Of a DNA stretch of 64,000 nucleotides, positions 11,384-63,773 are shown in pieces. The notes under the pieces were generated by a model. The model ran no database searches, was not told the origin of the DNA, and worked only from the letters and a program-made list of their open reading frames with translations. The first letter of the stretch is position 1, and each line of letters begins with the position of its first letter. The stretch is from a virus: the IMG/VR virus record IMGVR_UViG_3300035670_013167, positions 42,764-106,763 of that record. One strand, given 5' to 3'. The position numbers were made by a program, and so were the translations under genes.

Positions 11384-11397
11384 TTTTCATCCTTTGA

Positions 11398-15981: not shown

Positions 15982-16268
15982 ATTTTTTTATTATTCATTA
16001 ATTTTTCTTTATTTTTTTGATCTACTTTATCTGCCACGTCTTTTATTTTTAGTATGTCGTCCGGCGAAGAATTTGGATCCATAACGGCTTGCTGAGCTAC
16101 GTTTTGAAGAGCTTTAGCAGGATCTTGTTTTTGCTTCATAGCTCCAACCAAAGCATTTTTAACATTCATTTGAATTTTTTTCTCATCATCCTTCTTTTTT
16201 ACATTATTCAAATTATTAGAAGGTTGAATTTCTTCTTTTATTTTAAGCCATTCTGTAAATTTAATCAT
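15978..16268 (-). CDS. CTS-tagged hypothetical protein
   Basis: 96 aa from ATG 16268, chosen because it opens the shared motif MIKFTEWLKIKEE; an earlier in-frame start adds 8 residues. The body is lysine/glutamine-rich and helical (NVKNALVGAMKQKQDPAKAL). CATAAATA lies 4 nt before the ATG and no clear SD is present, as for other tagged genes. The next tagged gene is coupled (ATGA). Confidence 0.75.
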   Translation of the reverse strand: MIKFTEWLKIKEEIQPSNNLNNVKKKDDEKKIQMNVKNALVGAMKQKQDPAKALQNVAQQAVMDPNSSPDDILKIKDVADKVDQKNKEKLMNNKKI

Positions 16269-16275
16269 ATAATAT

Positions 16276-19992: not shown

Positions 19993-20137
19993 TTTTCTTT
20001 TCTTTGGGCCATTTTCTTCTAACTAGTCCAATTCCAACGGGCATTTTATAAGGAGCAATATCTCCAACTCCTCCTGTGGGTACAGAAGACATTGTTCCAG
20101 ATTCTAATAATTTTAGCCATTCTTTAAAAGATTTCAA
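19970..20137 (-). CDS. 55-aa CTS-tagged protein with TTG start
   Basis: TTG 20137 overlaps the upstream stop (TTGA) and is preceded by GGAGGA. The product MKSFKEWLKLLESGTMSS carries the shared tag followed by LLES, a good T4-type prohead protease site. The C-terminal half is basic (VRRKWPKEKKNERR). It overlaps the first 23 nt of the phosphoesterase gene in another frame. Confidence 0.7.
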   Translation of the reverse strand: MKSFKEWLKLLESGTMSSVPTGGVGDIAPYKMPVGIGLVRRKWPKEKKNERRNNN

Positions 20138-20517
20138 ACTATTCCTCCCATACTAGGATCAGCTTGTGGTTGGTCTTGCCCTTGCATTATTAATTTTTGA
20201 AGATCATCCATAGAAATCAAAAACTTTTCATCTGATCTTGGTTTAACTTTTTTATCATCTACATAATTAATATTTTTAATTTTCGGATCATTTATTTGTT
20301 TCACCAAAACATGAGTAATTTTTCCATTATCATTTTTTTTAAAATCTAAAATTGAATAAGGGCCTATATTAGTAATATTAGAGCCAAACGAAAAAAAAGA
20401 GGCTACTTTAGGGTCTTTTTTAAAATCATCCGGGTGTATGCCGAGTTGGTCTCTTAGAGCAGAAAAATAATCTTCTTCTTCGTTTTTCAAAAAATTACTA
20501 AAAGATAAATTGTTCAT
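20134..20517 (-). CDS. Hypothetical protein with weak CTS-like N-terminus
   Basis: 127 aa. The start MNNLSFSNFLKNEEEDYF resembles the shared tag with a short extension. Later KKNDNGKITHVLVKQINDPK and a methionine/glutamine-rich C-terminus. CATATATA lies 6 nt before the ATG with no clear SD. Probably part of the tagged set. Function unknown. Confidence 0.7.
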   Translation of the reverse strand: MNNLSFSNFLKNEEEDYFSALRDQLGIHPDDFKKDPKVASFFSFGSNITNIGPYSILDFKKNDNGKITHVLVKQINDPKIKNINYVDDKKVKPRSDEKFLISMDDLQKLIMQGQDQPQADPSMGGIV

Positions 20518-20546
20518 AATTAATATATATGATCGGAGGCTTTTTT

Positions 20547-21619: not shown

Positions 21620-21772
21620 TTAAATTTTATTAAACAGTTCTTTAGGATAATAATACTCTTCTAAATTTTCATCTAAAATTAGATAAAAACAATCATGCTC
21701 TTTAGCTTCGTATTCTTTGTTTAATTCCAAAGAAGCAGGATAATAATCATTATTAATACAAATAACTTTCAT
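21620..21772 (-). CDS. 50-aa hypothetical protein, putative leaderless mRNA
   Basis: ATG 21772 is chosen: it gives MKVICINNDYYPASLELNKE and sits exactly 5 nt after TATAAATA (21785-21778) with no SD. The frame extends 16 codons further upstream without support. It resembles short phage proteins with an SH3-like strand pattern (EYEAKEHDCFYLILDE). No function assigned. Confidence 0.7.
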   Translation of the reverse strand: MKVICINNDYYPASLELNKEYEAKEHDCFYLILDENLEEYYYPKELFNKI

Positions 21773-21777
21773 AATAG

Positions 21778-21785
21778 TATTTATA
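21778..21785 (-). promoter_or_regulatory. TATAAATA box 5 nt before ATG (leaderless type)
   Basis: TATAAATA-CTATT-ATG on the minus strand. A T4-type late octamer centred near -10 would put the A of ATG at about +1, so the transcript would be leaderless. Confidence 0.6.
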
Positions 21786-28200: not shown

Positions 28201-28582
28201 TTATTATGACATCTGAATCTTCCAAGTCTTTTTTTGTCTTCTCATTAAGAACGTAATCTCCAGTACATATAGCCAATTTCAAATCAGAAAAATGATGATT
28301 TGCATCAGTCCAATCGTCTATTTTTTCTTTGGCTAAAGCCTTGAGCGGGGCAAGATACATGACTTTTCCGCCCTTATTTCTAATCTGCTCAGCCATCATA
28401 ATTTCTGAGCAGATTGTTTTGCCGGCAGAAGTTTTTGCAGCAACAACCAAATTGCAATCTTCTTTAAATATTTCACATATTCTACTTTGAACAGGATTAA
28501 ATTTTTCAAAAGGAAATTTTGCATAAGGATATGCAGAAGTTTCAACTAAATCGTTTTGATCTTCTAATTCAATTACTTGCAT
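25271..28582 (-). CDS. Hel308/Ski2-type superfamily 2 helicase with intein
   Basis: 1103 aa, about 672 after splicing. Motif I AAKTSAGKT, motif Ia YLAPLKALAKEKI, motif II VIDEFH, motif III LSATMPN, motif VI QMAGRAGRVGYD, and a C-terminal helix-hairpin-helix LCKIPNIGKARAEKLYAAGF match Hel308-like helicases, which act on forked or recombining DNA. ATG 28582 is preferred because the 51 nt before it form a terminator for the upstream gene; it has no SD. It is the second SF2 helicase here besides UvsW. Confidence 0.92.
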   Translation of the reverse strand: MQVIELEDQNDLVETSAYPYAKFPFEKFNPVQSRICEIFKEDCNLVVAAKTSAGKTICSEIMMAEQIRNKGGKVMYLAPLKALAKEKIDDWTDANHHFSDLKLAICTGDYVLNEKTKKDLEDSDVIIMTSEMLNSKCRNYKSEKNDWLKEVKTLVIDEFHLLTVPGRGDHLEVGLMKFAKINPDCRIVGLSATMPNVYEISEWLAKALTKKKTYLINSKYRPCPLSIHYEEYEDQGTYEMKEDNKIDKAVEILRKYKDDKFLVFVHSKNTGQKIKKHLDQLNIESELHNADLEKEKRNEVENKFKNGSLRVIIATSTLAWGCYEKGTLVLTENGIEYIENILVGDSVMSMTENGFKPCKVLRTGIKKVKKTIEITLNSGENFKVSEDHKFFGAVDRKTPDYFSANKYKIGDYIATPAEIKIWDDIESDDYGYLVGYVMGDGCKSKCGKYADKTDKVVMDIAFGSDELNHCYYIKELFKKTLLEEINGPRKDSFGVFHLVSKKRKLVDFFNCFEPGRNKHKMDIVSLRRKDPEFLKGLIQGLFDTDGGFSSHGNGQVSIEFSSISKKLVQQVQQILLFFGVRSCVGRKKMKDVIIKERLQKSRRDYIYRVRIYNYQIINFIKSIGFRNKNKKSYGDYVCSLGKLPEEKDIIPVRNLIIDHFEKNKVNLKCKFLKDNFNVDLWNCLNKQDLKRSTCRKITERYPIQSSLTNILNSNIKFSKIINIIYKDENQEMYDIEVDKYHNYVGGGVVSHNCNFPARRVVITGVHRGTTEVDTYDIMQMAGRAGRVGYDPKGDVYVLVPDRSSDHHIDRLSIPQEINSQLLNYIGDEDNPHYKTLAFHLVSEIHHGEIKTIEDIHNWYERSLARFQAVDLDDSVVDKTLELLMQVGAIKEVDGIYEATSIGKVSSMFYYSPFDVSDLRRNFRFLFMKNLENNDYALSMALGNIDSIRMGFVTKNEKEEMSDYLSVIKKSFGDVYLDSSVKGGYAYFCLLRGKDPGPFNSLSRGLQLDFERAASVLNALDNMAAKWNKKNYFKTLSLRIAYGVRAELVNLCKIPNIGKARAEKLYAAGFRVPKDLVGNFDKVKQVLNMKEEKILEIIECSKNV
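26327..27619 (-). mobile_element. Intein with LAGLIDADG endonuclease in the helicase (431 aa)
   Basis: It begins CYEKGTLVLTENGIEYI after TSTLAWG, contains VSEDHKFFG, LAGLIDADG motifs YLVGYVMGDGCKS and LIQGLFDTDGG, and ends YVGGGVVSHN before +1 Cys of CNFPARRVV. The insertion is in helicase motif V (splicing restores TLAWGCNFPARRVV), a catalytic site as is usual for inteins. All junction residues are present. Confidence 0.93.
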
Positions 28583-28592
28583 TTTTTTAAAT

Positions 28593-28630
28593 AAAAAAGG
28601 GTGATATGATATATTATACCATATCACCCT
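28593..28630 (-). terminator. Rho-independent terminator with embedded TATAAT
   Basis: AGGGTGATATG / CATATCACCCT (11-bp perfect stem, 11-nt loop) followed by a U run on the minus strand closes the 28654-28926 gene. The loop holds TATAAT, so the same site may also start transcription of the helicase gene just downstream. Confidence 0.75.
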
Positions 28631-28653
28631 CACACATCAAAACGAGAGAATGG

Positions 28654-28926
28654 CTATTTTTTTTCTTTTGATTTTTGTCTTTTATTTTTTTCTATTTCAG
28701 ATTGATCTTGAATAAGATCAACCTTATCAAACCAATCAAATGCAGATTTAGCCTGCATTAGCCACTTATCGATTTCTTTGTCTTTAGCAAACAAATAAGA
28801 AACATCGGCTCGATCTCCACTAACAGGTTGCGTTAGTCTTTCTACAATCAAATCCAATTCGTCATCAGAAAGACGACGAAGATACTCTTTTACTATCAAA
28901 GAATCTTGCTTAGAGTTTTTTTTCAT
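28654..28926 (-). CDS. Hypothetical basic protein
   Basis: 90 aa from ATG 28926 (GGTGGTG upstream). It reads MKKNSKQDSLIVKEYLRRLS, then RLTQPVSGDRADVSYLFAK and a lysine-rich tail. Longer upstream extension is unsupported. The start codon overlaps, in opposite orientation, the start codon of the plus-strand gene. Ends in a strong terminator. No family recognised. Confidence 0.7.
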   Translation of the reverse strand: MKKNSKQDSLIVKEYLRRLSDDELDLIVERLTQPVSGDRADVSYLFAKDKEIDKWLMQAKSAFDWFDKVDLIQDQSEIEKNKRQKSKEKK

Positions 28927-33310: not shown

Positions 33311-34303
33311 CTAAGACAACTTTCTAAGTTCTTCTAAAAAGTCTTTATCAGCCATTTCTTCATCTTCATCGTCGTTTTGTTCAACTTTAGAAGTGGATTT
33401 GGAAACGATTTCTTCAACATCCTCTTCTTCCACAACCTGTTTGACCTTAGGGGGAACAGGAGCCGAAACAGAAGAAGCGGAAGTAGAAGCAGAAGACTTG
33501 AATTTTGATGGATCAAAATTCGAACTTGTTTCCTGTTTCAAACCCAAATGAATCATCAATTCATTTTCTAAATCTTCTGCTGATTTGAGCACTCTCAAAG
33601 AAGCCAAGTCATGAAGATTTTCCATCCACTTTTCACACTCATCAGGATCACCGGCTGGCGACTCGTCTAAGAAATGAGAACTTTCGTAGTTAGGATAAGT
33701 ATTCTCACCAGATTTTCTAATGGTCTTGACTAATTTGAAGTCTCTACCAGTTTTGAAATCAGTAACATCACCTAATCTAGGCTGATTCATTTCTTTGTCG
33801 CCGCAAATTCCTCTAAGAATAGCTTCGTGAACTGTTTTACCAACTGAGAGAATTTTAGGACCAACATTCTTTTTTACATTTCCATTTTCGTCAGTTTCAG
33901 CCCTTACTATTACATTGTAATAGTATCTTTCAATAGGCTTCAATTCTCGATAGGTAGCCTGCATTCTATCTCGTTCTTCGGGCGGGGCTTGTTCTGACTC
34001 TTTCCACAGCCACTTGAGATAGTCTCCAATTGGATTTTCACCAACCCACTTGCCATTTACCTTTTCTCTAGGATCATGAAGGCTCTTACCATTTACCTTA
34101 TGAATTCTTGTCCATTGATAAAAAGGATTTTTTTCTCTATCGAACATTCCATTTGGAGCAGGAGGCAAAATTCTCAAAACAACACTGCCCTTGCCTTCGG
34201 GCATTCTTACAAAGTTTTCCAAAAAAGATCCAGAAGAACCACTAGCTTCTACAGCCTTGGATTCCTTGTATTCTTCACTAAGGGAATTAATATCTAGTCC
34301 CAT
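33311..34303 (-). CDS. 32: gp32-type single-stranded DNA-binding protein
   Basis: 330 aa (T4 gp32 301). The core carries NFVRMPEGKGSVVLRILPP, ERYYYNVIVRAETDENGN and GPKILSVGKTVHEAIL, as in gp32-like OB-fold proteins. A Ser/Ala/Pro linker leads to an acidic tail (EEDVEEIV, NDDEDEEMADKDF). The Cys/His zinc ligands of T4 gp32 are not seen, so this version probably lacks zinc. GGAG precedes the ATG; a sigma70-like promoter and inverted repeats lie in the 114-bp leader, a candidate site for autoregulation. Confidence 0.9.
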   Translation of the reverse strand: MGLDINSLSEEYKESKAVEASGSSGSFLENFVRMPEGKGSVVLRILPPAPNGMFDREKNPFYQWTRIHKVNGKSLHDPREKVNGKWVGENPIGDYLKWLWKESEQAPPEERDRMQATYRELKPIERYYYNVIVRAETDENGNVKKNVGPKILSVGKTVHEAILRGICGDKEMNQPRLGDVTDFKTGRDFKLVKTIRKSGENTYPNYESSHFLDESPAGDPDECEKWMENLHDLASLRVLKSAEDLENELMIHLGLKQETSSNFDPSKFKSSASTSASSVSAPVPPKVKQVVEEEDVEEIVSKSTSKVEQNDDEDEEMADKDFLEELRKLS

Positions 34304-44949: not shown

Positions 44950-44957
44950 TATAAATA
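44950..44957 (+). promoter_or_regulatory. TATAAATA box 5 nt before ATG (leaderless type)
   Basis: TATAAATA-AAAAT-ATG precedes the tagged gene at 44963. No SD lies between box and start. The same GGCGTATAAATAAAA string occurs at 2880-2894. Confidence 0.65.
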
Positions 44958-44962
44958 AAAAT

Positions 44963-45268
44963 ATGAATTTTAGGCAATTTTATGAAATGGCTAGTTTTAC
45001 TTTACCTCATTCTATAAATATAGATGGAGAAAAAGTACAAGCTATAGATATGCAATTTGAACTAAGTCCAAAAACCTTAGATAAAAATGGCAAAGTAATG
45101 AATCAAGGATCTAAATTTATTGCTAAAATGCCTAATTCTAGTGATTATTTAGTTTATAATGGCGAAGGATATTCGATCTTTGCCGACAGAGATAATTTAT
45201 ATAATTTATTAGAAAAAGGCTATGAATTAATTCCAAAAGATTGGTGGAAAAAAGCTAGATTTATTTAG
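44963..45268 (+). CDS. CTS-tagged hypothetical protein
   Basis: 101 aa. MNFRQFYEMASFTLPHSI carries the shared tag (F-x-x-F-Y-E). The body is strand-rich: IDGEKVQAIDMQFELSPKTL, FIAKMPNSSDYLVYNGEGYS. Expressed from an apparent leaderless late promoter. Convergent, overlapping the HNH gene by 8 bp. Confidence 0.75.
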   Translation: MNFRQFYEMASFTLPHSINIDGEKVQAIDMQFELSPKTLDKNGKVMNQGSKFIAKMPNSSDYLVYNGEGYSIFADRDNLYNLLEKGYELIPKDWWKKARFI

Positions 45269-45638
45269 ATTCAAATTCTATTAATAATTTTTCTACTTCT
45301 TCTATAGAATTAATATAAATTTCTATTTTGTCTCTCGTTCTTTCATTTGAAGAATGAGTTTTTTCCATATGACAATTATGACATAATAAAATACACTTTT
45401 TCATTTCTTCTATTAATTCTGAAGGTTTGTGTTTTTTAGAATAAAGTCGATACATCCCACCAGCACTAGATCTTTTAGAATATCCATTTTTAACATGCTC
45501 AGATTTATCTTCTCCGGGCAAATGATCAAAACACAAACAAGAAGGATGTTTGTTATAACCGCAATTTTGACATCCTACTGATATTTTATAAATGTCTACA
45601 ATTTTATGTCTATAATCTTTTATATTTTTACTATTCAT
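45261..45638 (-). CDS. HNH-type endonuclease-like zinc protein
   Basis: 125 aa. GCQNCGYNKHPSCLCFDHLP and CILLCHNCHMEKTHSS give the CxxC pair and the HNH-like DH...N..H residues. Resembles phage homing-type HNH proteins. Its substrate is unknown. Confidence 0.8.
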   Translation of the reverse strand: MNSKNIKDYRHKIVDIYKISVGCQNCGYNKHPSCLCFDHLPGEDKSEHVKNGYSKRSSAGGMYRLYSKKHKPSELIEEMKKCILLCHNCHMEKTHSSNERTRDKIEIYINSIEEVEKLLIEFESK

Positions 45639-45686
45639 GATACAATCTAGAAATCAACATTAAACTATATTATATTAAATATTAAA

Positions 45687-46193
45687 ATGATTATCAATAG
45701 CAAAAAGTTTAAAAGATTCATAACTAGCAAAAAAATAAAAAATAAAATAAATTTTATAGCCAAAAAAATAAACAAGGACTACAAAGATAAAAATCCTTTG
45801 TTCTTATGCATACTAGATGGATCATTTATGTTTGCATCTCAACTTTACAAAAAAATAAAAGTTGAATCTGAAATAAGCTTTGTAAAAATAAAATCTTACA
45901 AAGGCACCAAATCAAATGGAATAAATAATTTAATAGGAATAAATCAAGATCTAGAAGATAAAGATGTTGTGATAGTAGAAGATATTGTAGACACGGGCAA
46001 AACTATAAAATATATACTTAACAATATAAATTGTAGATCAATTAGAATCGCAACTCTGTTATCAAAACCAGAAGTTCATAATCTAAAATTAGATTATGTT
46101 GGGTTTGAAATACCTGATAAATTTGTAATTGGCTATGGTTTAGATTATAATGGTTTAGGAAGAAATTTAAAGGAAATATATCAAATATCATGA
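45687..46193 (+). CDS. hpt: Hypoxanthine(-guanine) phosphoribosyltransferase
   Basis: 168 aa. The PRPP loop VVIVEDIVDTGKT, LCILDGSFMFASQLYKKI and FVIGYGLDYNGLGRNL are HPRT signatures. Salvages hypoxanthine or guanine to IMP/GMP. Overlaps the next gene by 4 nt (ATGA). Works with GuaC in purine salvage. Confidence 0.93.
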   Translation: MIINSKKFKRFITSKKIKNKINFIAKKINKDYKDKNPLFLCILDGSFMFASQLYKKIKVESEISFVKIKSYKGTKSNGINNLIGINQDLEDKDVVIVEDIVDTGKTIKYILNNINCRSIRIATLLSKPEVHNLKLDYVGFEIPDKFVIGYGLDYNGLGRNLKEIYQIS

Positions 46194-47230
46194 TAAATGA
46201 AATTTTTTTAGAACCTGTTATGTATGTTTATGTTTTGAGTGGAGAAAACTTAAAGAAAAAATCTAATAATGAAGATTATTGGAAAATAAAAGTATTGACC
46301 ACTCTTGATAGTCCTAAGGAAATTGACCTAAAAATATGGGAATGCGGCCCTAATCCTAGCGATAATAATGATTTGCCACAAAAAGGCGATTACTTAAAAA
46401 TAATTATAGAAAATTTAGAGGAATTTGAAAAAGAGTACAAACTTCCGGCAAGTAGATTTTCATCAACAATTGGCCGTGGGAAAAACTTGAGCAATATTAA
46501 AATAGACAAATCAAAAATCCCAGAAGAATACTTGAACAAACTTGTTCTAAAGTGTGCGAGTCCAAAGCAAATTAAAAAAGCATGGTCGATAATAGATTCG
46601 AATGAGTATTGGGAATGCGAAGAAAATTATAAATTTATAATGACCGTTTTAGACCGTGTAGGAAGAAAAAAAATTGAAGAAGCACCTGCTGCTAAATCTT
46701 GTCATCATAATTACAAAGGCGGTCTATTAATTCATACTAGCGAGGTACTAAGAAGTGCTAGATATAATGTATTAAGTAAGCAACCTCATTATGATTTTAT
46801 AAATTACGATGTTGTTTGCGGAGCGGCAATATTACATGATATTGGCAAAATAAATACGTTTATGTGTGATGAGCTTAATGTTCCTGATAGTTCTGAAGAA
46901 GAGTCTTTACTAGGACATCCTTACTATTCAATGTTTTATATTAAAAAAATAGCAGAAGAAATTAATTTTGAAAATAAAGAATATATTAAAGAATTGCTAC
47001 ATTGCGTTGCTTCTCACCACGGCAGGCCAGAATGGGGAGCAATAAAAGAAGCAAAAACCCCTGAAGCTCTAATTTTACATGACGCAGATAATGAAAGCAG
47101 TACAATTGAATCCTTTAAGGATTTATTATTAAAATCAACAAATGATCAAAAGTTTATGAAACATTTTGGAGATAATTTTTATATAACTTACAAAGCTAAA
47201 AAAATGAAATCGGAAGGCAAATTAAATTAA
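46190..47230 (+). CDS. YhaM-like HD-domain 3'-5' exoribonuclease
   Basis: 346 aa. An N-terminal OB-like domain (about 1-100) is followed by an HD domain: CHHNYKGGLLIHTSEV, CGAAILHDIGKINTF, LLGHPYYSMFYI, ASHHGRPEWGAIKEAKTPEA and ILHDADN. The domain order and GRPEWGAIKEAKTPEA-type segment match YhaM. Could degrade RNA or ssDNA, or hydrolyse nucleotides. Confidence 0.85.
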   Translation: MINEIFLEPVMYVYVLSGENLKKKSNNEDYWKIKVLTTLDSPKEIDLKIWECGPNPSDNNDLPQKGDYLKIIIENLEEFEKEYKLPASRFSSTIGRGKNLSNIKIDKSKIPEEYLNKLVLKCASPKQIKKAWSIIDSNEYWECEENYKFIMTVLDRVGRKKIEEAPAAKSCHHNYKGGLLIHTSEVLRSARYNVLSKQPHYDFINYDVVCGAAILHDIGKINTFMCDELNVPDSSEEESLLGHPYYSMFYIKKIAEEINFENKEYIKELLHCVASHHGRPEWGAIKEAKTPEALILHDADNESSTIESFKDLLLKSTNDQKFMKHFGDNFYITYKAKKMKSEGKLN

Positions 47231-48216
47231 TACAAACCGATATATTCTACCGGAGCATCTTTTATTACTTGGTAATATTTTATTGGTCCATCTAAAGTTT
47301 TTATTAAGTATTTGTTATTTATTTTAATTTTATAAATATCTCTTCTTTCATCTGTGCCGGACAGATCACCAGCCAAACCGTCAACATGATTGAAGCTATT
47401 TGATAAAAATATATTGGCTGGCAAATAATCTGTTTTATTATAAAATTCTCTATCTTTAGTTGGCCTTGCTGTATACAAGGTTAATATTTGATTTTTTTTA
47501 TTTGGGTTTTGAAGTTGTGAAATTAAATTAAAATAATCTTGTTTTTCCTCGTTACTTGTAAAAAGATATTCTGACTCTTCTTCGTCTGCTTCTAATATGT
47601 CTTCTATGGTGAATTTTTCATCTTGTTTCCAAATTTGAAAATCTCCATTTTTATTTCCCACCTTAATTTCAGCACTATCTGAAGAAGATAAAAAATCCTC
47701 ATCAGATGAATTATAAATTGGAAATATTGTTACTTTGGATCCATTCCAATCTAAATTTGATATTGCTTGATCTATTTTATTTTTTATTTCAAGCATATTT
47801 TGATTTGTTTTTTCTAAAACATTATTTAATAAATTATAATATTCATTTTTATCTATTTTTCTATCGTCCAAAGAGTCCAGATACCTCCAGAGATATCTCA
47901 TTACATTAAAAACTTTGTATCTATCATCACCGGACAAAGATCTTTGCCAATCCCACAGATCATCGCTCCATGTTTTTGCTACTGATCTTGTGGACGAATT
48001 GGGCAATTGAACAATCAATTCATTTATTTTTGGGTAGTCTTTTAGTTCTTTTTTTATATAATTTAGATCTAATTTGAAATTTTTTAATTCTTCGGTTTCA
48101 TTTTCATAATCACTAAAAAAATCTTCTATTTTTTTAGTGATTATTTTCTTGAGATTATCTATATTGATTTGAACCAAATTATTTATATTTTCTAGGAATT
48201 GATAAAAAGTTTTCAT
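47227..48216 (-). CDS. CTS-tagged protein with ADP-ribosyltransferase-like C-terminus
   Basis: 329 aa from ATG 48216, which overlaps the GNAT stop (ATGA). MKTFYQFLENINNLVQI is among the closest matches to the T4 tag. A long helical region follows. The C-terminal about 90 residues (ILTLYTARPTKDREFYN, LPANIFLSNSFNHV, IKYYQVIKDAPVEYIGLY) have an R...SxS...E spacing recalling the ADP-ribosyltransferase fold, as in T4 Alt, which is also tag-bearing and injected. The catalytic assignment is weak and needs structure comparison. Confidence 0.7.
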   Translation of the reverse strand: MKTFYQFLENINNLVQINIDNLKKIITKKIEDFFSDYENETEELKNFKLDLNYIKKELKDYPKINELIVQLPNSSTRSVAKTWSDDLWDWQRSLSGDDRYKVFNVMRYLWRYLDSLDDRKIDKNEYYNLLNNVLEKTNQNMLEIKNKIDQAISNLDWNGSKVTIFPIYNSSDEDFLSSSDSAEIKVGNKNGDFQIWKQDEKFTIEDILEADEEESEYLFTSNEEKQDYFNLISQLQNPNKKNQILTLYTARPTKDREFYNKTDYLPANIFLSNSFNHVDGLAGDLSGTDERRDIYKIKINNKYLIKTLDGPIKYYQVIKDAPVEYIGLY

Positions 48217-48632
48217 ACATTGCACTCTATAAAAATAGGAGAATAAGCAGAGGCGTCGTAATCATTTGAAATAATAGCAACATCTCCAAAAAAAACATGA
48301 TTAATTTTGTAAACTTCTATATCTTCTCCATATATGTCTTCTGCATCTTTTAGATTTATAAAAGCCAGAGTTTTTCCAAATTTTTTTAAAATATTATATA
48401 TTCTTCCATCAAGATCATGTTGTTCTGTGTATATTTTTTTAATATTATTTTTTTTACAAATTTCAACAAGATTATATATTAATTTTGTTCCTATGCCTTT
48501 TCCTTGTAGGTTATCAGGAACAGATAATCCCGCAATATATGCATAGTTTGAACCTAGTTTATAAGAAAGAAAAGAATCTCCTTCTTGAATGTTTTTATTT
48601 ATATTTTCTAGGAATTTATAAAAGCTAATCAT
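48213..48632 (-). CDS. CTS-tagged GNAT acetyltransferase
   Basis: 139 aa. MISFYKFLENINKNIQEGD is the tag; the GNAT core follows at once: YAYIAGLSVPDNLQGKGIGT (motif A, acetyl-CoA loop Q-x-x-G-x-G), then LIYNLVEICKKNNIKKIYTE. It transfers acetyl groups. The tag suggests the enzyme is packaged and delivered with the DNA to modify a host target early; this is an inference. Flanked by other tagged genes on the same strand. Confidence 0.85.
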   Translation of the reverse strand: MISFYKFLENINKNIQEGDSFLSYKLGSNYAYIAGLSVPDNLQGKGIGTKLIYNLVEICKKNNIKKIYTEQHDLDGRIYNILKKFGKTLAFINLKDAEDIYGEDIEVYKINHVFFGDVAIISNDYDASAYSPIFIECNV

Positions 48633-48633
48633 T

Positions 48634-49260
48634 TTATTCCCAACTTATTCTTTTGCTGCTTTTTTTTCTTCTAGTTCCTTTTTTATTGCAAGCTGATAAA
48701 GTTGGTCTGCAAGCTGGGTATTCTCTTTCTGCTCCTTTGCCTGCTTTTTTTCTTCCGCAAGGAACTAAATTTCCTTTTTTACTAGCTTTGCAATCAATCC
48801 AACCGCCAGTTTTTCTGTCGAACCAGCCTTTTAGCCCTCTTTCTTTTTCTAATTTGAATGTGTTTTCCTTGAAATCTTCTGGTTTTGTGTTTTCTTTAGC
48901 AATAGATTTTATCCTAGCAATAAATAAATTTAGATCTGTTCTTTCTGGTATTTTTTTATGCATATCAATCAAAGCTTTTCTTATTTCTTTTGATGGCGCT
49001 GTTTCTGCATCTATGCCTTTATATTTTAATGACATTATTGCTTGCATTGCATCATCATATTGTTTCTTTTCTTTTAGAGATTCATTTATTTCTACTTGCT
49101 CTTTTTTTGTTTTATTTCCCCAATTTTTAGCTCCTACTTTGCGACAACGAACCAGCGCACCCGAGGCATAAGCGCTAGGAAAAACTGAATATCTATTTTT
49201 TACTTTGTGATAACAGGCATCTTTTTCTTCTCTTATTTCTAACCACTCTGAAAATTTCAT
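48634..49260 (-). CDS. CTS-tagged basic protein with CYHKVK motif
   Basis: 208 aa; GAGGTCGGAA precedes the ATG. MKFSEWLEIREEKDACYHKV joins the tag to a motif (CYHKVKNRYSVFPSAYASGA, LVRCRK) I recognise from many phage proteins of unknown function. A second such motif, GWFDRKTGGWIDCKASKKGN, and a basic C-terminus (KKGTRRKKSSKRISW) follow. Probably nucleic-acid-binding and packaged (inference). Confidence 0.8.
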   Translation of the reverse strand: MKFSEWLEIREEKDACYHKVKNRYSVFPSAYASGALVRCRKVGAKNWGNKTKKEQVEINESLKEKKQYDDAMQAIMSLKYKGIDAETAPSKEIRKALIDMHKKIPERTDLNLFIARIKSIAKENTKPEDFKENTFKLEKERGLKGWFDRKTGGWIDCKASKKGNLVPCGRKKAGKGAEREYPACRPTLSACNKKGTRRKKSSKRISWE

Positions 49261-49333
49261 TTCCGACCTCTTTATTGGTATTTTTTAGTATTAATCATTG
49301 ATCTATATTCTATACTTGGGGAGTTTTGTCATT

Positions 49334-49996
49334 TCATGCGTTCAAGTCTTTAGTTAAGTTTCCTATATTTATTTTATATTTTGTGAATCTATCGCCCCAA
49401 AGTGATTTTTGAGGTATTTCTTCTAATATTCTTTTTTCTATTAATCTTGCAATGGCTTTTTGTGTATCATAACTTTGCAAGCCAATTTCTATTTCTCTAA
49501 CTTGTAATTTTGATAACTCATGAAGTAATTTTTTAAAAAATCCTCTTCTTTTTAAATTAGATTCTTCAGGCGAGTATTTCTTATCTATAGGAACAGAATC
49601 CATTCTTGTAATGCTTGCTAATCGACCTTTTATCCAACCGGTTGCACTTCCACCCAACTCGTCTTCGTATTCAAAATCCCTCACAGGAATTTTTCTAGAT
49701 TGCTTCATATCTGGTCCGATATTATTGTAATTAAATTTTGTTGTTCCGGGTGATTGATTAATGTTTTCTAGCCAATTTTTGAAAGATTCATCTTTTTGTG
49801 TTGCTAACTTTTGAAAAGTGTTTACAGGTCTGCTGGGGTCAACAATTATTTTCTTTATTTCTTTTTCTCCATCTTTACTGGTTATTTTGTCCCATGCTTT
49901 TTCTCTAGTATTTTTAGAATATTTTTTAAATACTACTTCTAAACTTTTAGCTATGTCAACTATTGCGTCTTTTACGTTCGTATCGTTTTTCTTCAT
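49334..49996 (-). CDS. Protein with internal CTS-like motif
   Basis: 220 aa. The N-terminal about 67 residues (MKKNDTNVKDAIVDIAKSLE) are followed by DESFKNWLENINQSPG, the tag motif at an internal position. Then comes a body with EYEDELGGSATGWIKGRL and YDTQKAIARLIEKRILEEIP. No start codon sits just before the internal motif, so either a domain was fused upstream or the motif also works internally. Function unknown. Confidence 0.7.
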   Translation of the reverse strand: MKKNDTNVKDAIVDIAKSLEVVFKKYSKNTREKAWDKITSKDGEKEIKKIIVDPSRPVNTFQKLATQKDESFKNWLENINQSPGTTKFNYNNIGPDMKQSRKIPVRDFEYEDELGGSATGWIKGRLASITRMDSVPIDKKYSPEESNLKRRGFFKKLLHELSKLQVREIEIGLQSYDTQKAIARLIEKRILEEIPQKSLWGDRFTKYKINIGNLTKDLNA

Positions 49997-49998
49997 AA

Positions 49999-50448
49999 TT
50001 ACCCCAATCTAATATTTGCAATGTCAGAGACTTTTATATTTTTTAATTTAAGTGTTCCGTGAGCTAAAGGACGATAATACCCAGTAGAATGTATATATTG
50101 CATAGCATAATACAAATAATCAGGCAGCAAATCGTCAGAAATAACTTTTATCCCGATGTGTTCTGGGCTAAAATCTTTTGTAGGACTTCCAACTTTATCC
50201 TCAGTTCCTTTTCTAATTATCCAAAAATCTGCTTCTGGGAAATTCGTTTTCATTTCTGTTTTCTCAGACAAAGTAACAGAAACATTTTCATTTTTATTAA
50301 ATTTCATTTTTAGAATCTTGTTTTTTCTTTTGCACCCTAAGTTTGAAAGTGCTCCTTGGACTTGAAAATTAGGATGTTTCAAGTCTTTGCATGATACGAT
50401 TGAATCAACCGATCCCATCATTTCTAAAAAATCATAAAAATTAAGCAT
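49999..50448 (-). CDS. CTS-tagged HsdS target-recognition-domain-like protein
   Basis: 149 aa. MLNFYDFLEMMGSVDSI is the tag. The last about 75 residues (DFWIIRKGTEDKV, DDLLPDYLYYAMQYIHSTGY, HGTLKLKNIKVSDIANIRL) resemble the second half of a type I restriction specificity (HsdS) recognition domain, where LxPxYLYYxL and a final I-x-x-I-x-I strand are typical. A single packaged TRD could act as a decoy against host type I restriction, comparable in logic to the T4 internal protein IPI (inference). Starts inside the end of the upstream gene. Confidence 0.65.
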   Translation of the reverse strand: MLNFYDFLEMMGSVDSIVSCKDLKHPNFQVQGALSNLGCKRKNKILKMKFNKNENVSVTLSEKTEMKTNFPEADFWIIRKGTEDKVGSPTKDFSPEHIGIKVISDDLLPDYLYYAMQYIHSTGYYRPLAHGTLKLKNIKVSDIANIRLG

Positions 50449-51244
50449 AATTGTACAAAGCTCCAGAGATACAGTCTATTATTTCAGAATTTGGCTGGGC
50501 TGGAGAAAAATACTCGTCCCATTCAGAAGGTTGAGGAATCCATTTGTGGCCTTTGGTGGGAGATTGAACTTCGTATCCTGTAGATCTTATTATTCCGGTT
50601 TTTGGATTATAGTTCATGTCTACGAGAAAAGCTTCTACTCTTGCTGATGTTGGAGCCTCAACTCCTTGTCCTTTGCATTCGAAATGAATTATGTAACTTT
50701 CATTATGTTTTATTTCTTTTACACCTATGAACATTAGTACTTTTGGAATAACACTTGGTTTTTGGCATTCTCTAACTATTTGTACTATTAAATTTTCTAA
50801 GTTGGAATAATCTCCAATGGCCGACTCTAATTGATTTTCATTTGTTTTTTCTACTTCTTCAAATATTTTATGGGCTAAGTTTTCATCGATTCTTAAGTTA
50901 GAATGAAGAACCTCTTTGAAAGGTAATACTTTTTTACAAATCCAAACTTGATTTCCTTCTAAGTTTGTTTGTAGTCTTCTTATTGTTGCTCTAAAAGATC
51001 CTAATGGGCTAATTGTGACTTGAGTTGCTCCATTATTTCTTCCCCACTGAATGTGACTAGAAAAATTTGAAAAAGGATGAGTATCATTTAAATTAATTCT
51101 TAATAATTCTTCCATCATATTTTCTGTATTAATATAATTAATTGGATATTCGTCTTGAACTTGATTGTAAGTTTTATTATTAATTTTTTCAAATCCAAAA
51201 ATGTCTTTAGATTCGTTTATCCAATTTTTAAATGATATTTTCAT
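50441..51244 (-). CDS. CTS-tagged hypothetical protein
   Basis: 267 aa. MKISFKNWINESKDIFGFEK is the tag (INES: a possible prohead protease site). The body is mixed alpha/beta: IQWGRNNGATQVTISPLGSF, ENLIVQIVRECQKPSVIPKV, SYIIHFECKGQGVEAPTSAR. Driven by the minus-strand side of a shared TATATATA box 5 nt from its ATG. Function unknown. Confidence 0.75.
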   Translation of the reverse strand: MKISFKNWINESKDIFGFEKINNKTYNQVQDEYPINYINTENMMEELLRINLNDTHPFSNFSSHIQWGRNNGATQVTISPLGSFRATIRRLQTNLEGNQVWICKKVLPFKEVLHSNLRIDENLAHKIFEEVEKTNENQLESAIGDYSNLENLIVQIVRECQKPSVIPKVLMFIGVKEIKHNESYIIHFECKGQGVEAPTSARVEAFLVDMNYNPKTGIIRSTGYEVQSPTKGHKWIPQPSEWDEYFSPAQPNSEIIDCISGALYNYA

Positions 51245-51249
51245 AGTAA

Positions 51250-51257
51250 TATATATA
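51250..51257. promoter_or_regulatory. Shared palindromic TATATATA box, 5 nt from ATG on both sides
   Basis: One TATATATA octamer serves two divergent tagged genes: plus strand TATATATA-CTATT-ATG (51263) and minus strand TATATATA-TTACT-ATG (51244). Only 18 bp separate the two start codons, so neither gene can have an SD; both mRNAs would be leaderless. Confidence 0.65.
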
Positions 51258-51262
51258 CTATT

Positions 51263-51589
51263 ATGAAAAAGTTCTCTGTTTGGCTAGAAGAAAAAGATTA
51301 TCTAAATGAAGAAAAAGATTATCTAAATGATGCAATTTTAGGCGTTTTTGGGGGAGACTCTATTCTTGGCGACTCTGAAAAAAGATACATCATGAGTAGA
51401 AATACAAATGAATTTAGTAACGAAATATTAAATAATTTTTTGAATTTAGGAGTTTTGAAAAGTTCTTTTGAGAACAATCCTAATAAGATGTTAGATATAA
51501 AAAATATGGTTAAGAATGGAATACTAATAAAAGACTTGATAGACAAGATCAGGGGAGAAAATTTAGCTCCCAATGCGAGGATAGAATGA
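51263..51589 (+). CDS. CTS-tagged hypothetical protein
   Basis: 108 aa. MKKFSVWLEEKDYLNEEKDY carries the tag, then a 7-residue duplication (EEKDYLN twice). The rest is helical: SNEILNNFLNLGVLKSSFEN, MVKNGILIKDLIDKIRGENL. Stop overlaps the next start (ATGA). Function unknown. Confidence 0.75.
   Translation: MKKFSVWLEEKDYLNEEKDYLNDAILGVFGGDSILGDSEKRYIMSRNTNEFSNEILNNFLNLGVLKSSFENNPNKMLDIKNMVKNGILIKDLIDKIRGENLAPNARIE
51287..51328 (+). repeat. 21-bp perfect tandem duplication
   Basis: GAAGAAAAAGATTATCTAAA plus T occurs twice in tandem (51287-51307, 51308-51328), duplicating seven residues just behind the CTS-like tag. The copies are identical, so the event is recent. Confidence 0.95.
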
Positions 51590-54215: not shown

Positions 54216-54223
54216 AATATATA
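54216..54223 (+). promoter_or_regulatory. AATATATA box 5 nt before ATG
   Basis: AATATATA-ATTTT-ATG precedes the 54229 gene with no SD; one mismatch to the TATATATA form used by tagged genes, same 5-nt spacing. Confidence 0.45.
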
Positions 54224-54228
54224 ATTTT

Positions 54229-55380
54229 ATGAAATTTAATGAAAGAACTTTGTATCACGGAACAATTATAGACAATGAGCCTTCAATTCGTCAATTTGGA
54301 TTAGTAGGAGGATGGCATGGGCCAATTGGGAGTTTTGTAGATGATGCATATGGTTCTGATTACGAAAATATAGAACCGACAGAAGAAGACGAAATAGTAT
54401 TCGCAGCGGATAAAAATAATTTAAATAAAGCTGTAAATGCTATGGTGCATCACATAGGTAAAAAATTAAATAAAAATTTTCATGATGTTAGTGATAATGA
54501 CATAAGAAATCACGGTTTGTTGGTTATTATAAAAGATAGTGAATTAGAACCACACGACCAGGATAAATATCAAGACAACATTCCTAGAGGAGTAGAACCT
54601 GGGGATTATTATGATTCACAAATGGGTGCAGATTTATTTTTAAGAGGATCTTCGCTAATAAGATTTTTAAGAAATAAAGGACAATGGCCCAGAACTTGGG
54701 GTACAAATAGCGGAAATAGGGAAAAAATAACTATGGGAAAAACACAAGCTTCTTGGATGCAAAATAAAACAAATAATAATCAAAAAATTATAAAATTTAA
54801 AGAATGGATCAACCAAAATACAGTAGGAACTGATTTAGTAGATTCTTCTCAAATAGAAAGATTATACGATAAGGCAAAATTATCTGTAAAAATAGTGCAA
54901 ATTTATAGCAAGACTACTAATCAAAATTTATTAAAAAATATTAGCACAATAGCTCCACTTGCAGCCGGTGTTTACGGAATGTACATGAGCAAAGAAAACA
55001 AAAGAGTTATTGGTAAAGAAACAGCGGAAAAAATGAGGTTATTATTTCCCAAAGACATGATGCTCCAACAAAAATTACAAACTCTTCCAAATGCTGTAAT
55101 TAAAAAATACGTTCCAGATGTGGATGATAAACAACTTCAACCAACAGATACGATTAGAGTTAATGTGAAAAAAATAGTTGATAAATTAGGAGATTCAAAA
55201 GAAGCAGTTTTAGAAATAGCAAGCACGATAGTTCACGAAGCAACTCATGAAGTTGAACTTCAAACTACTGGTAAAACAAATGAAATTGGCCCAAAGAATG
55301 CAGAAGCAAAGTTCATTCAATGGGCCAATCAAAATTGGAACATGTTAAGAACAAGAATTCCCGAATTATCTAATTTATAA
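54229..55380 (+). CDS. Two-domain protein: ART-like N-terminus, internal CTS motif, HEXXH metallopeptidase-like C-terminus
   Basis: 383 aa. Residues 1-70 (RTLYHGTIIDNEPSIRQFGL, VFAADKNNLNKAVNAM) look like the ADP-ribosyltransferase-type LYHGT fold of phage proteins. At about 188-200 IIKFKEWINQNT matches the shared tag but internally. The C-terminal part has IASTIVHEATHEVELQT, an HEXXH zinc site with a downstream acidic residue, and a probable membrane-like stretch (TIAPLAAGVYGMYM). It looks like two tagged-type modules fused. Actions on host proteins are inferred from domains only. Confidence 0.7.
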   Translation: MKFNERTLYHGTIIDNEPSIRQFGLVGGWHGPIGSFVDDAYGSDYENIEPTEEDEIVFAADKNNLNKAVNAMVHHIGKKLNKNFHDVSDNDIRNHGLLVIIKDSELEPHDQDKYQDNIPRGVEPGDYYDSQMGADLFLRGSSLIRFLRNKGQWPRTWGTNSGNREKITMGKTQASWMQNKTNNNQKIIKFKEWINQNTVGTDLVDSSQIERLYDKAKLSVKIVQIYSKTTNQNLLKNISTIAPLAAGVYGMYMSKENKRVIGKETAEKMRLLFPKDMMLQQKLQTLPNAVIKKYVPDVDDKQLQPTDTIRVNVKKIVDKLGDSKEAVLEIASTIVHEATHEVELQTTGKTNEIGPKNAEAKFIQWANQNWNMLRTRIPELSNL

Positions 55381-56325: not shown

Positions 56326-57084
56326 ATGATTATTAATAAAAATAAAAAACAAATAGAAGGAATAAAACAAAGTTGCAAATTAGCTGCTGAATGTTTGAAT
56401 TTTATAGAACCATATGTTGTTCCTGGAATTTCTACTAACGAACTAAATAGCAAATTAAATACATTTATAAGAGACAATGGAGCTATTCCTGCTCCATTGG
56501 GATATGGAGGATATCCCAAAGAAACTTGCATTTCTGTTAATGAAGTAATATGTCATGGAATTCCTAGCGAACAAGTTTTATTAGAAGGCGATATAGTTAA
56601 TATAGATGTTACAACCATATTAAATGGATATTATGGCGACACAAGCAAAATGTACGCTGTTGGAGAAATATCTCAAGAAGCTCAAGATTTAATTAATATA
56701 ACTAAAAAAAGTTTATATGAAGGAATCAAAGCAGTAAAGCCAGATGTTCCATTCAATAGAATAGGATATTCTATTACTCAATTTTTAAAAGATACTAAAT
56801 ATTCTATTGTAGATAAATTTGTTGGACATGGTTGTGGATTAAAATTTCACGAAGATCCCAAAATTTGTCATTACGTGAATGAAAAATACAAAGATATAGG
56901 CCAAAAAATGCAGCCGGGTATGATATTTACAATAGAACCCATGATAAATCTAGGCAGCCCAGATTGCCTGATATTAGAAGACAAGTGGACAGCTGTAACC
57001 ATAGATAAGAAGCTTTCTGCTCAATATGAGCACATGATCTTAGTTACAGAAGATGGTTTTGAAATTTTAACTGAATTAAATTGA
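56326..57084 (+). CDS. map: Methionine aminopeptidase, type I
   Basis: 252 aa from ATG 56326 (no clear SD). The metal ligands are present: NIDVTTILNGYYGDTSKMY (two Asp), FVGHGCGLKFHEDPKI (His), MIFTIEPMINLG (Glu) and QYEHMILVTEDG (Glu). CISVNEVICHGIP carries the substrate-site His. Removes initiator methionine; a phage copy may process abundant virion or early proteins. Confidence 0.95.
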   Translation: MIINKNKKQIEGIKQSCKLAAECLNFIEPYVVPGISTNELNSKLNTFIRDNGAIPAPLGYGGYPKETCISVNEVICHGIPSEQVLLEGDIVNIDVTTILNGYYGDTSKMYAVGEISQEAQDLINITKKSLYEGIKAVKPDVPFNRIGYSITQFLKDTKYSIVDKFVGHGCGLKFHEDPKICHYVNEKYKDIGQKMQPGMIFTIEPMINLGSPDCLILEDKWTAVTIDKKLSAQYEHMILVTEDGFEILTELN

Positions 57085-57094
57085 TATATATTGT

Positions 57095-57457
57095 ATGAAA
57101 ACATTTTACCAGTTTTTATTAGAAGCTCCTACACCTCCCAGCCCACCTCCACCTGGAGGTGCAGCGCCAAGTTCTAACGCTCCGCCTCCTGGAGGCCCTC
57201 CTGGAGGTTTAGGTGGCGGATTAGGAGGTCCTGGACCTTCTTTAGGAGGTCCGCCACTAGGAGGCCCATCTTTGGGCGGAGGTCCATCGTTAGGAGGCCC
57301 ATCGTTAGGTGGAATGGATTCACCACCTGCTCAAGGATCTCCTCAAAATGCCCCTGTACAAAAATATAAAACTACAAATGTTTGGCAAGCTTTAGAAAAG
57401 CTTATAAAAAATAAGAATGGACAAAATCAGAATAAAATGATAGATTCTGATACATGA
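57095..57457 (+). CDS. CTS-tagged Pro/Gly-rich protein
   Basis: 120 aa. MKTFYQFLLEAPTPPSPPPP: the tag is the best T4 match in the window and is followed by LLEA, an ideal gp21-type cleavage site. Residues 14-85 are low-complexity Pro/Gly/Ser with GGPSLGG-like repeats. The C-terminus is basic and helical (VWQALEKLIKNKNGQNQNK). A disordered packaged protein. Overlaps gene 47 by 4 nt (ATGA). Confidence 0.8.
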   Translation: MKTFYQFLLEAPTPPSPPPPGGAAPSSNAPPPGGPPGGLGGGLGGPGPSLGGPPLGGPSLGGGPSLGGPSLGGMDSPPAQGSPQNAPVQKYKTTNVWQALEKLIKNKNGQNQNKMIDSDT

Positions 57458-61691: not shown

Positions 61692-63773
61692 ATGAACAAA
61701 GAATATTATTGGTTAAATAACCATAGTCGATTATTTTTAGAACGAGGATATTTAGAAGAAGGAATAACGCCCGAGCAAAGAATCAAGCAAATAGCCGACA
61801 ACGCAGAAAAAATATTAAAAATAAAAGGATTTGCAGATAAATTTGAAAAATATATGAGTTTGGGCTTTTATAGCTTAGCAACTCCAGTTTGGACAAACTT
61901 CGGAAATAAAAGAGGATTGCCCGTCAGCTGTTTCGGCTCATTTGTTCAAGACAAAATGGAAGCCATTCTAACAAAATCTGCCGAGGTTGGCATGATGAGC
62001 AAATTAGGAGGAGGAACCAGCGGATATTTTGGCGAACTAAGACCACGAGGAACAAAAATTAGTGTTGGCGGCGAAAGTAGTGGTGCTGTCCATTTTATGG
62101 AGATCTTTGATAAGGTTGCGGATGTAATAAGCCAAGGAAGCGCAAGAAGAGGTAGCTTTGCGGCTTATATGCCGATTGAACATAACGATATTGAAGAGTT
62201 CTTAAGAATCCGATCAGAAGGTCATCCTATACAAAATATGAGTATAGGCGTCACAGTAACTGATAAGTTTATGAAAGGTCTCATAGAAGGTGATAAAGAT
62301 AAAAGAAAAGTATGGGCAAAAGTTATCCAAAAAAGATTCGAAACTGGCTATCCATATATTATGTTTGTTGATAATACAAACAAGCAAGCTCCAAAAGTCT
62401 ATAAGGATAAAAAATTAAAAATAAAAGCCAGCAATCTTTGTGTTTCAGCAGACACAAAGATTCTTACAAAAGAAGGCGAATTGACTATTGGAGAAAATGA
62501 AAATCAAGAAGTTGAAGTTTGGAACGGTAAAAATTGGTCAAAAACAAAAATAGTAAAAACAGGACAAAATCAAAAATTAATAAAATTTGCTGTTATACTG
62601 AGACAATTCGATGACTTAGACACAGAAACTTTTTCAAGAGTTGAATTAAAAACTACTGAATATCATAAATTTTATCTTAGAGATGGAAAACATGTCGAAG
62701 CAAAAGACTTAAAGCCGGGTGATCTATTGCTTAAGTTTGAAGATGCAAAAGGCAGATTGTTTAGTCCTGAAGTTATTGATATTTATAATGAAAATGAAAT
62801 TGGCGATACTTATTGTGTCAATGAGCCTTTAGAACACAAAGCAGTTTTTAATGGAATATTAACAGGCAATTGCTCAGAAATACAATTGTATTCTGACGAG
62901 GACAATAGTTTTGTGTGCGTATTGTCTAGTCTAAATCTTCTTCATTGGGATGAAATTAAAGAAACAGACGCAGTCGAAACTTTGGTTTATTTTCTAGATG
63001 CTGTAAACGAAGAATTCGTGCAGAAAACAGAAAATATCAAGTATATGGAAGCTGCACATAATTTTGCCAAATCCCAGAGAGCATTAGGAATGGGAGTGTT
63101 AGGATGGCATTCGTTGCTTCAATCTAAAATGATTGCGTTCGAATCTATGCAGGCTAAATATCTTAATACAGAAATATGGAAAACAATTAGAGAAAGAGCA
63201 GATAAAGCCACTGAAGACATGGCAAAAGAATACGGAGAGCCAGAACTACTCCAAGGCTACGGCAGAAGAAATGTTACTACTTTGGCTGTTGCCCCTACCA
63301 CAAGTAGTTCGTTTATTTTGGGTCAGGTTAGTCCTAGTATAGAGCCACTAAATAGCAATTATTTTGTTAAGAATTTGGCAAAAGGAAAATTTACATATAA
63401 AAATCCATACTTAAAAGAAGTTCTTAAGAAACATGATAAAAATAATGATGAAGTCTGGAAAAGTATACTTATCAAGGGCGGAAGTGTTCAACACCTTGAT
63501 TTCCTGACAAAAGAAGAAAAAGAAGTGTTTAAAACTTTTGGCGAGATTAGTCAAAAAGAAATTGTTATTCAAGCTGCTCAAAGACAAAAGTATATCGACC
63601 AAGCACAGTCATTAAATATTATGATTCCTCCCGACACGAGTCCTAAAGAAGTAAATACTCTTTTGATAGAAGGTTGGGAATTAGGATTAAAAACTTTTTA
63701 TTATCAAAGAAGCGCCAATCCCGCCCAAGAATTAGCCAGAAGCATATTGACCTGTGCTTCTTGTGAAAGTTGA
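61692..63773 (+). CDS. nrdA: Ribonucleotide reductase class I alpha subunit, compact, with mini-intein
   Basis: 693 aa, about 549 after splicing, shorter than T4 NrdA (754) and without an ATP cone. Landmarks: SLATPVWTNFGNKRGLPVSC, MMSKLGGGTSGYFGELRPRG, GGESSGAVHFMEIFD, SNLC...SEIQLYS, VCVLSSLNL, APTTSSSFILGQVSPSIEPL and the redox tail LTCASCES. Reduces ribonucleoside diphosphates to dNDPs. The loss of the cone suggests reduced allosteric control. A TATAAT-like hexamer lies upstream (61653-61658). Confidence 0.95.
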   Translation: MNKEYYWLNNHSRLFLERGYLEEGITPEQRIKQIADNAEKILKIKGFADKFEKYMSLGFYSLATPVWTNFGNKRGLPVSCFGSFVQDKMEAILTKSAEVGMMSKLGGGTSGYFGELRPRGTKISVGGESSGAVHFMEIFDKVADVISQGSARRGSFAAYMPIEHNDIEEFLRIRSEGHPIQNMSIGVTVTDKFMKGLIEGDKDKRKVWAKVIQKRFETGYPYIMFVDNTNKQAPKVYKDKKLKIKASNLCVSADTKILTKEGELTIGENENQEVEVWNGKNWSKTKIVKTGQNQKLIKFAVILRQFDDLDTETFSRVELKTTEYHKFYLRDGKHVEAKDLKPGDLLLKFEDAKGRLFSPEVIDIYNENEIGDTYCVNEPLEHKAVFNGILTGNCSEIQLYSDEDNSFVCVLSSLNLLHWDEIKETDAVETLVYFLDAVNEEFVQKTENIKYMEAAHNFAKSQRALGMGVLGWHSLLQSKMIAFESMQAKYLNTEIWKTIRERADKATEDMAKEYGEPELLQGYGRRNVTTLAVAPTTSSSFILGQVSPSIEPLNSNYFVKNLAKGKFTYKNPYLKEVLKKHDKNNDEVWKSILIKGGSVQHLDFLTKEEKEVFKTFGEISQKEIVIQAAQRQKYIDQAQSLNIMIPPDTSPKEVNTLLIEGWELGLKTFYYQRSANPAQELARSILTCASCES
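62439..62870 (+). other. Mini-intein in NrdA (144 aa, no endonuclease)
   Basis: It starts CVSADTKILTKEGELTIG at residue 250 and has a block B-like TTEYHKFYLRDGKH. It ends EHKAVFNGILTGN before +1 Cys of CSEIQLYSDE. No LAGLIDADG or HNH domain is present. The residue before the terminal Asn is Gly rather than His (TGN), a known but less common variant. Splicing would give KASNLCSEIQLY. Confidence 0.9.

Follow-up and report, generated by a model that had tools for sequence, protein, structure and literature searches.

The window analysed here, a 64-kb stretch of viral DNA, has two divergent genes whose start codons are separated by little more than one palindromic box of the T4 late-promoter type, and other genes in it have a similar box almost directly in front of ATG. 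The locus therefore raises the question of whether this virus makes its late proteins from mRNAs that begin at, or nearly at, the start codon.

Source DNA, relatives and the boxes in the window

The source contig (IMG/VR record G000:C1; 106,763 bases, 31% G+C), of which the window covers positions 42764-106763, comes from a huge T4-type phage and carries T4-type replication genes (UvsX, gp32, gp41 helicase, gp46, and gp47). Its nearest relative within the phage collection is the uncultured phage LR756511.1 (595,163 bases, 42% G+C), in which 63 contig proteins have a match, including gp46 (42% identity over 98% of the query) and a SpoVR-like protein (59%). Gene starts were called by a simple program written for this analysis, with ATG preferred, resulting in 140 starts on the contig and 898 in LR756511. 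Because scans of IMG/VR with single proteins (sigma and gp46 queries) returned none or two weak relatives, LR756511 and a variable-gap DNA pattern were used instead. LR756511 was chosen by protein homology (tblastn) and not by the box, so its boxes provide a fair independent test. The pattern (TATAWATA-N{0,30}-ATG, then codons for MKTFxxW) matched 35 stretches in IMG/VR. Their gaps, derived from the match length (29 fixed bases), form two main groups; one spans 3-7 nt, and the other, at 14 nt, comes mostly from a single group of related contigs. Nine of the 11 lineage contigs were selected with this box-containing pattern (spacings 0-30) and are thus supporting rather than independent evidence.

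Several of the genes concerned encode an N-terminal tag, MKTF/Y-xx-F/W, which resembles the N-termini of the T4 internal proteins IPI (MKTFKEF) and IPII/IPIII (MKTYQEFIAEA), as read from NC_000866. The boxes and genes are as follows (window coordinates; gap, number of nucleotides between box and ATG):

51250-51257, both strands: palindromic late box TATATATA, common to two divergent genes
51245-51262: intergenic region AGTAATATATATACTATT, 18 bp (5 nt, the palindrome, 5 nt), followed by ATG on each strand
50441-51244, minus strand: tagged gene MKISFKNWINES, 267 aa, ATG 5 nt after the box
51263-51589, plus strand: tagged gene MKKFSVWLEEKD, 108 aa, ATG 5 nt after the box (TATATATACTATTATG)
44950-44957, plus strand: late box TATAAATA, gap 5
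44963-45268, plus strand: gene MNFRQFYEMAS, 101 aa, weakly tag-like
21778-21785, minus strand: late box TATAAATA, then CTATT and ATG, gap 5
21620-21772, minus strand: small untagged ORF MKVICINNDYYPAS, 50 aa, the weakest of the four exact-case genes
54216-54223, plus strand: late box AATATATA, gap 5
54229-55380, plus strand: untagged gene MKFNERTLYHGT, 383 aa, downstream of the 54216 box
2884-2891, plus strand: late box TATAAATA, gap 3 to the ATG of gene 2895-3851
16273-16280, minus strand: late box CATAAATA, gap 4 to the ATG of tagged gene 15978-16268 (MIKFTEWLKIKEE)
57083-57090, plus strand: late box GATATATA, gap 4 to the ATG of tagged gene 57095-57457 (MKTFYQFLLEA)
20524-20531, minus strand: late box CATATATA, gap 6 to the ATG of tagged gene 20134-20517 (MNNLSFSNFLKN)

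An earlier sequence-only reading of this DNA had reported exact 5-nt spacing at four sites, all of which were verified (21770-21785 and 51242-51257 on the minus strand, 44950-44965 and 51250-51265 on the plus strand). The AATATATA-N5-ATG at 54216 and the gaps of 3, 4, 4, and 6 nt at 2884, 16273, 57083, and 20524 are also as claimed.

Position of the box relative to start codons

TATAWATA-N5-ATG occurs four times in the window (0.33 expected), a count of four or more being reached in none of 100 shuffles; the whole contig has five occurrences, and none of a reversed-pattern control. For called starts, expected values were obtained from dinucleotide shuffles of the 60 nt upstream of every gene. 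Here, TATAWATA lies at gap 5 before five of the 140 starts on the contig (0.08 expected), and before four in the window (0.04 expected). The shorter TAWATA precedes eight contig genes at gap 5 (0.59 expected), which is the maximum of the gap histogram, and 15 starts at gap 3-8 (3.0 expected). In LR756511, it was found at gap 5 before 25 of the 898 starts (1.5 expected) and at gap 3-8 before 62 genes (8.1 expected). The spacing count that the sequence-only reading had proposed is therefore positive, with an excess of TAWATA at gap 5 in both genomes. Even when the distance from the box to any ATG was counted without gene calls, the result was noisy but the maximum was still at 5. On the other hand, TATAAATA as a bare word is only mildly in excess in the window (19 vs 10.8 expected), which indicates that the signal is the position and not the word.

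The exact form TATAWATA-N5-ATG is rare in LR756511 (four matches), where the box is usually NTAWATA (C or A in front) and often has no leading TA. An initial scoring of this phage as negative, based on those four matches, was dropped after the box had been widened. Each of the nine scan-selected contigs has a box excess at gap 3-7 over all of its own genes; in G007, a distant relative with scarce SDs (4%), the tag match itself has a gap of 14 and the excess is at gap 4. Overall, the spacing is mostly 4-8 nt with a mode of 5, so the exact 5-nt rule proposed earlier is retained as the mode, and some mRNAs would have leaders of a predicted 1-3 nt.

These data bear on one alternative, namely chance in A+T-rich DNA or miscalled start codons. 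The low G+C content of the contig and the mild word excess in the window fit this explanation, but it is contradicted by the shuffle and offset controls, by the same pattern in LR756511 at 42% G+C, and by the retention of boxes in orthologues of 29-50% protein identity. Wrong starts are further opposed by the tag, which lies directly at the start codon in tagged genes. We regard this explanation as very improbable.

Shine-Dalgarno motifs, gene layout and conservation

The absence of an SD, claimed previously for the exact cases, extends to boxed genes on the whole contig, where 0 of 15 has one. Across the lineage, an SD precedes 69% of the starts that have their box at 14-29 nt but 4% of those boxed at 3-8 nt, although the lack in the latter is partly forced, since a box so close to ATG fills the SD position. 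The genes with both a box 14-29 nt upstream and an SD are T4-like, so some genes of this lineage retain leaders.

Gene layout also differs. A divergent upstream neighbour was found for 122 of 234 boxed genes vs 498 of 2559 others (p=6e-26), and boxed genes are seldom located close behind a gene on the same strand. Among 1,387 reciprocal best pairs (box defined here as TANATA), a box at gap 3-8 is present in both members of 72 pairs and in one member of 172 (odds ratio 11). For example, the tagged gene at 50441-51244 and its LR756511 orthologue (29% protein identity) both have TATATA 5 nt upstream of ATG, and the G003 orthologue of the gene at 44963-45268 (53% identity) has a box at gap 4 from its start. 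The best relatives of the 54229-55380 protein (in G011 and LR756511) are partial-length matches with boxes at gaps 4 and 5; PHROG and Pfam searches with this protein gave no match, nor did a Pfam search with the 51263-51589 protein. The arrangement at 51250 is not unique either: a shared box plan was observed in nine divergent pairs from six genomes (the 51250 pair and eight in related phages), with 16-22 bp between the genes. Such regions have no space for a leader and an SD on either side, unless transcription starts within the neighbouring gene.

An alternative is that TAWATA acts in translation, as an A/U-rich, SD-independent ribosome site, and that transcripts start elsewhere and have leaders. 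The box does take the place of the SD, some bacterial lineages are known to translate many genes without SDs, and G007, which has almost no SDs, shows the gap-4 excess. However, a signal of translation would be expected just as often before genes inside operons, whereas boxed genes are over-represented at divergent positions and under-represented closely downstream of a gene on the same strand. Moreover, the word is that of the T4 late box, relatives have a matching sigma family, and SD use is normal in the remaining genes of these phages. We therefore consider a translation signal unlikely and favour a promoter.

Sigma factors and the genes that carry the box

If the box is a T4-type late promoter, a gp55-type sigma factor would be expected. 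The LR756511 protein encoded at 464260-464817 and one G005 protein gave profile matches to PHROG 234 (annotated as late sigma transcription factor), and T4 gp55 itself has this family as its top match. In G004 and G009, gp55-family homologues were detected by alignment. Since the match of the LR756511 protein to PHROG 351, a general sigma family, is of similar quality, the assignment of this protein to gp55 combines size, a common N-terminal segment, and PHROG 234; PHROG 234 was used because aligning the gp55 family to T4 gp55 by hhalign gave a weak result. A search for gp55 on the contig, which is a fragment, found none. In LR756511, gp55 is located ~21 kb past gp46 in the same direction, and gp46 ends ~3.4 kb from the end of the contig, so gp55 may sit in the missing part. 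Two other sigma proteins are encoded on the contig, at 6577-7086 and 12290-12571; the former was the first gp55 candidate and was rejected (regions 2 and 4, PHROG 351). With regard to the partners of gp55 in T4, PF02916 detects T4 gp45 and nothing in these phages, although a diverged clamp may escape it, and a phmmer search with T4 gp33 gave no match outside T4.

The two other sigma proteins, together with the negative gp55 search on the contig, are what could be cited for the view that the boxes are real promoters for a different sigma factor (host sigma-70 or another phage sigma) and not specifically late. Against it, pooled logos have no position upstream of the box above 0.5 bits, except for a weak A/T tract, and no -35 element, and thus no strong upstream element; boxed genes of LR756511 include virion parts; and gp55-family proteins occur in LR756511, G004, G005, and G009. 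Recognition by a different sigma factor appears quite unlikely to us, and a gp55-type late promoter is the reading pursued below.

The box is strongly associated with the tag, being present in 9/19 tagged vs 6/121 untagged genes on the contig (Fisher p=7e-6) and in 28/78 vs 24/820 in LR756511 (p=1e-18). It had been stated that most exact cases lead tagged genes; three of the four window cases are indeed tag-like (MNFRQFYEM at 44963 weakly so), and the gene of the 21778 box on the minus strand is untagged. LxE occurs within residues 6-20 of 40% of tagged proteins vs 11% of internal look-alikes, and the T4 prohead protease gp21 cleaves at sites of this kind. In T4, internal proteins bear a capsid targeting sequence (PMC3012670). 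The tagged proteins are, judging from these similarities, probably packaged in the head and injected. The untagged boxed genes of LR756511 include matches to protein families of the head, the tail, the baseplate wedge, and the head-tail adaptor (Ad2), which suggests that the boxed class is late genes in general. Hence, the earlier proposal that late packaged proteins are made from leaderless mRNAs agrees with the T4-type box, the spacing, the lack of SDs, and the tag association, but its restriction to packaged proteins does not hold.

Comparison with known systems and a possible mechanism

T4 late boxes span -13 to -6 (PMC1524935, PMC2988020). If the T4 distance also applies to a sigma as distant as this one, a gap of 5 puts +1 on the A of ATG, in agreement with what the sequence-only reading had deduced; gaps of 6-8 would then leave 1-3 nt of leader, whereas at gaps of 3-4 transcription would have to begin 1-2 bases nearer the box.

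The classical model, the T4 late promoter (gp55, gp33, gp45; TATAAATA), shares with the present case the box itself, the lack of a strong -35 element, the presence before virion and other putative late genes, and a gp55-family sigma, here found in relatives. They differ in that the T4 clamp family was undetected in these phages, and in the position of the box: in T4 and four other T4-type phages it lies ~14-40 nt upstream, with a leader and an SD, whereas here it lies mostly at 4-8 nt without an SD. In T4, a single box lies at gap 3-7, where 1.4 would be expected, but the 14-29 nt interval contains 22 vs an expected 4.4. In Aeh1, S-PM2, Ochrobactrum phage vB_OspM_OC, and Agrobacterium phage Atu_ph07, 0-2 boxes were found at gap 3-7 and most were farther upstream (the Aeh1, S-PM2, and Atu_ph07 counts cover part of each genome). 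None of the five comparators has a peak at gap 3-7, so a box this close to the start codon is, within the set of phages compared, particular to the present lineage and not a general property of T4-type phages. The Aeh1 late box, CTAAATA from -12 (PMC1524935), resembles the NTAWATA of LR756511 in lacking the leading TA, but Aeh1 boxes are farther upstream, and the 160 kb examined contain no box at gap 3-7. The T4 internal protein genes are similar in their N-terminal tag and in the enrichment of LxE just after it, but their leaders end in an A/G-rich, SD-like sequence. Known leaderless mRNAs (lambda cI, mycobacteria, Deinococcus) likewise have no SD and the start codon at the 5' end (PMC9031893), as is expected here; what sets the present case apart is that an entire predicted late class would be leaderless, controlled by a single promoter type, although other genes of these phages are preceded by SDs. 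The open-licence papers searched contained no description of a T4-type lineage with a leaderless late promoter.

The box, its spacing, the absence of SDs, the conservation in orthologues, the divergent enrichment, the gp55-family sigma in relatives, and the kinds of gene involved are all features of the genomes themselves. Taken together, they make it likely that the boxes are gp55-type late promoters whose mRNAs would have no leader or almost none, so that the lineage as a whole would use a modified T4 late promoter. What we infer from these features is where transcription starts, that translation is leaderless, that gp55 recognises the box, when the genes are expressed, and that the tagged proteins are packaged. 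The box would be a lone -10-type TATA (N-TAWATA), opened by the gp55-family sigma with host RNA polymerase. RNA would start at, or within ~3 nt of, the A of ATG, and ribosomes would initiate on the 5'-terminal AUG without an SD. A palindromic box could fire in both directions and serve two divergent genes. We further conjecture that an SD-less start codon is poorly used inside a longer mRNA, so that early transcripts reading through late genes would not lead to their expression. In T4, certain late genes are protected from such early translation by hairpins in the read-through RNA (PMC3014915), and the absence of an SD could, again as a conjecture, do the same job here.

A more tentative extension is that mRNA architecture acts as a temporal gate: late genes, having neither leader nor SD, would be translated only from RNAs that start at ATG, made once the gp55-type sigma acts, while phage IF3 and bS21 would adjust the host ribosomes to SD-led mRNAs early and to leaderless ones late, and TATATATA would be a minimal two-way promoter giving two leaderless mRNAs from ~18 bp of intergenic DNA. 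This is possible, though we hold it with little confidence.

If leaderless late transcription is correct, translation of an entire temporal class of virus genes would depend on leaderless mRNAs, although the phages use SDs for their other genes. It would offer a natural system in which to study leaderless initiation, might explain the presence of IF3 and bS21 in these phages, and would provide a rule by which start codons can be called correctly in huge-phage genomes. In addition, a late box at most 8 nt from ATG, combined with the tag, may be used to list candidate packaged and injected proteins of uncultured phages.

Huge phages are known to carry IF3/bS21-type genes (PMC7162821), and phage bS21 shows late expression in phages of freshwater Bacteroidetes (PMC9723584); the word "leaderless" is absent from the main text of both papers. 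In E. coli, IF3 counteracts leaderless mRNAs when abundant, yet it is reported to be necessary in some conditions (PMC9031893). A search for IF2 found none. A full-length IF3 is encoded at 28320-28832 and bS21 at 33552-33797 of the contig (contig coordinates), and both families are also present in LR756511, G001, G003, and G006.

Late boxes close to start codons

Three TATAAATA boxes, the TATA boxes of probable T4-type late promoters, were found to share a 5' GCG (GCGTATAAATA) at window positions 2884 and 44950 and at position 1478 of contig G000:C1 (the whole 106,763-base record), and this trinucleotide is a possible extension of the late box in this phage. In the distantly related IMG/VR contig G007 (IMGVR_UViG_3300024320_000003), Shine-Dalgarno sequences are present in just 4% of genes, and boxes located 4 nt before the start codon occur in excess. 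Near-leaderless late genes may therefore also exist outside the huge-phage group.

Genes for translation and a small sigma protein

The following genes were identified:
Contig G000:C1:28320-28832 (locus coordinates L007:8320-8832), minus, outside the window: translation initiation factor IF3, both domains
Contig G000:C1:33552-33797 (L007:13552-13797), minus, outside the window: ribosomal protein bS21
Contig G000:C1:12290-12571 (L006:12290-12571), minus: 93-aa protein, hardly more than sigma region 2
Window 56326-57084: M24 metallopeptidase

Both the IF3 and bS21 families are also present in the 595-kb uncultured phage LR756511 and in the IMG/VR contigs G001, G003 and G006. The M24 metallopeptidase, whose gene adjoins gp47/gp46 (T4-type replication genes) and a tagged gene (N-terminus resembling T4 internal proteins), is possibly a methionine aminopeptidase.

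Inteins and a transposon protein

In a three-gene row, the PrkA gene is interrupted by an intein that includes a homing endonuclease of the LAGLIDADG type, and additional intein-bearing genes and a transposon protein were detected in the window:
Window 8586-14649: SpoVR, DUF444 and PrkA kinase genes, consecutive
Window 4990-7293: DNA polymerase III alpha-like protein, intein-bearing
Window 25271-28582: DEAD-box helicase (UvsW-like), intein-bearing
Window 61692-63773: ribonucleotide reductase large chain, intein-bearing
Window 1294-2460: IS605 OrfB transposon protein, TnpB-type, with a Cas12f1-like domain
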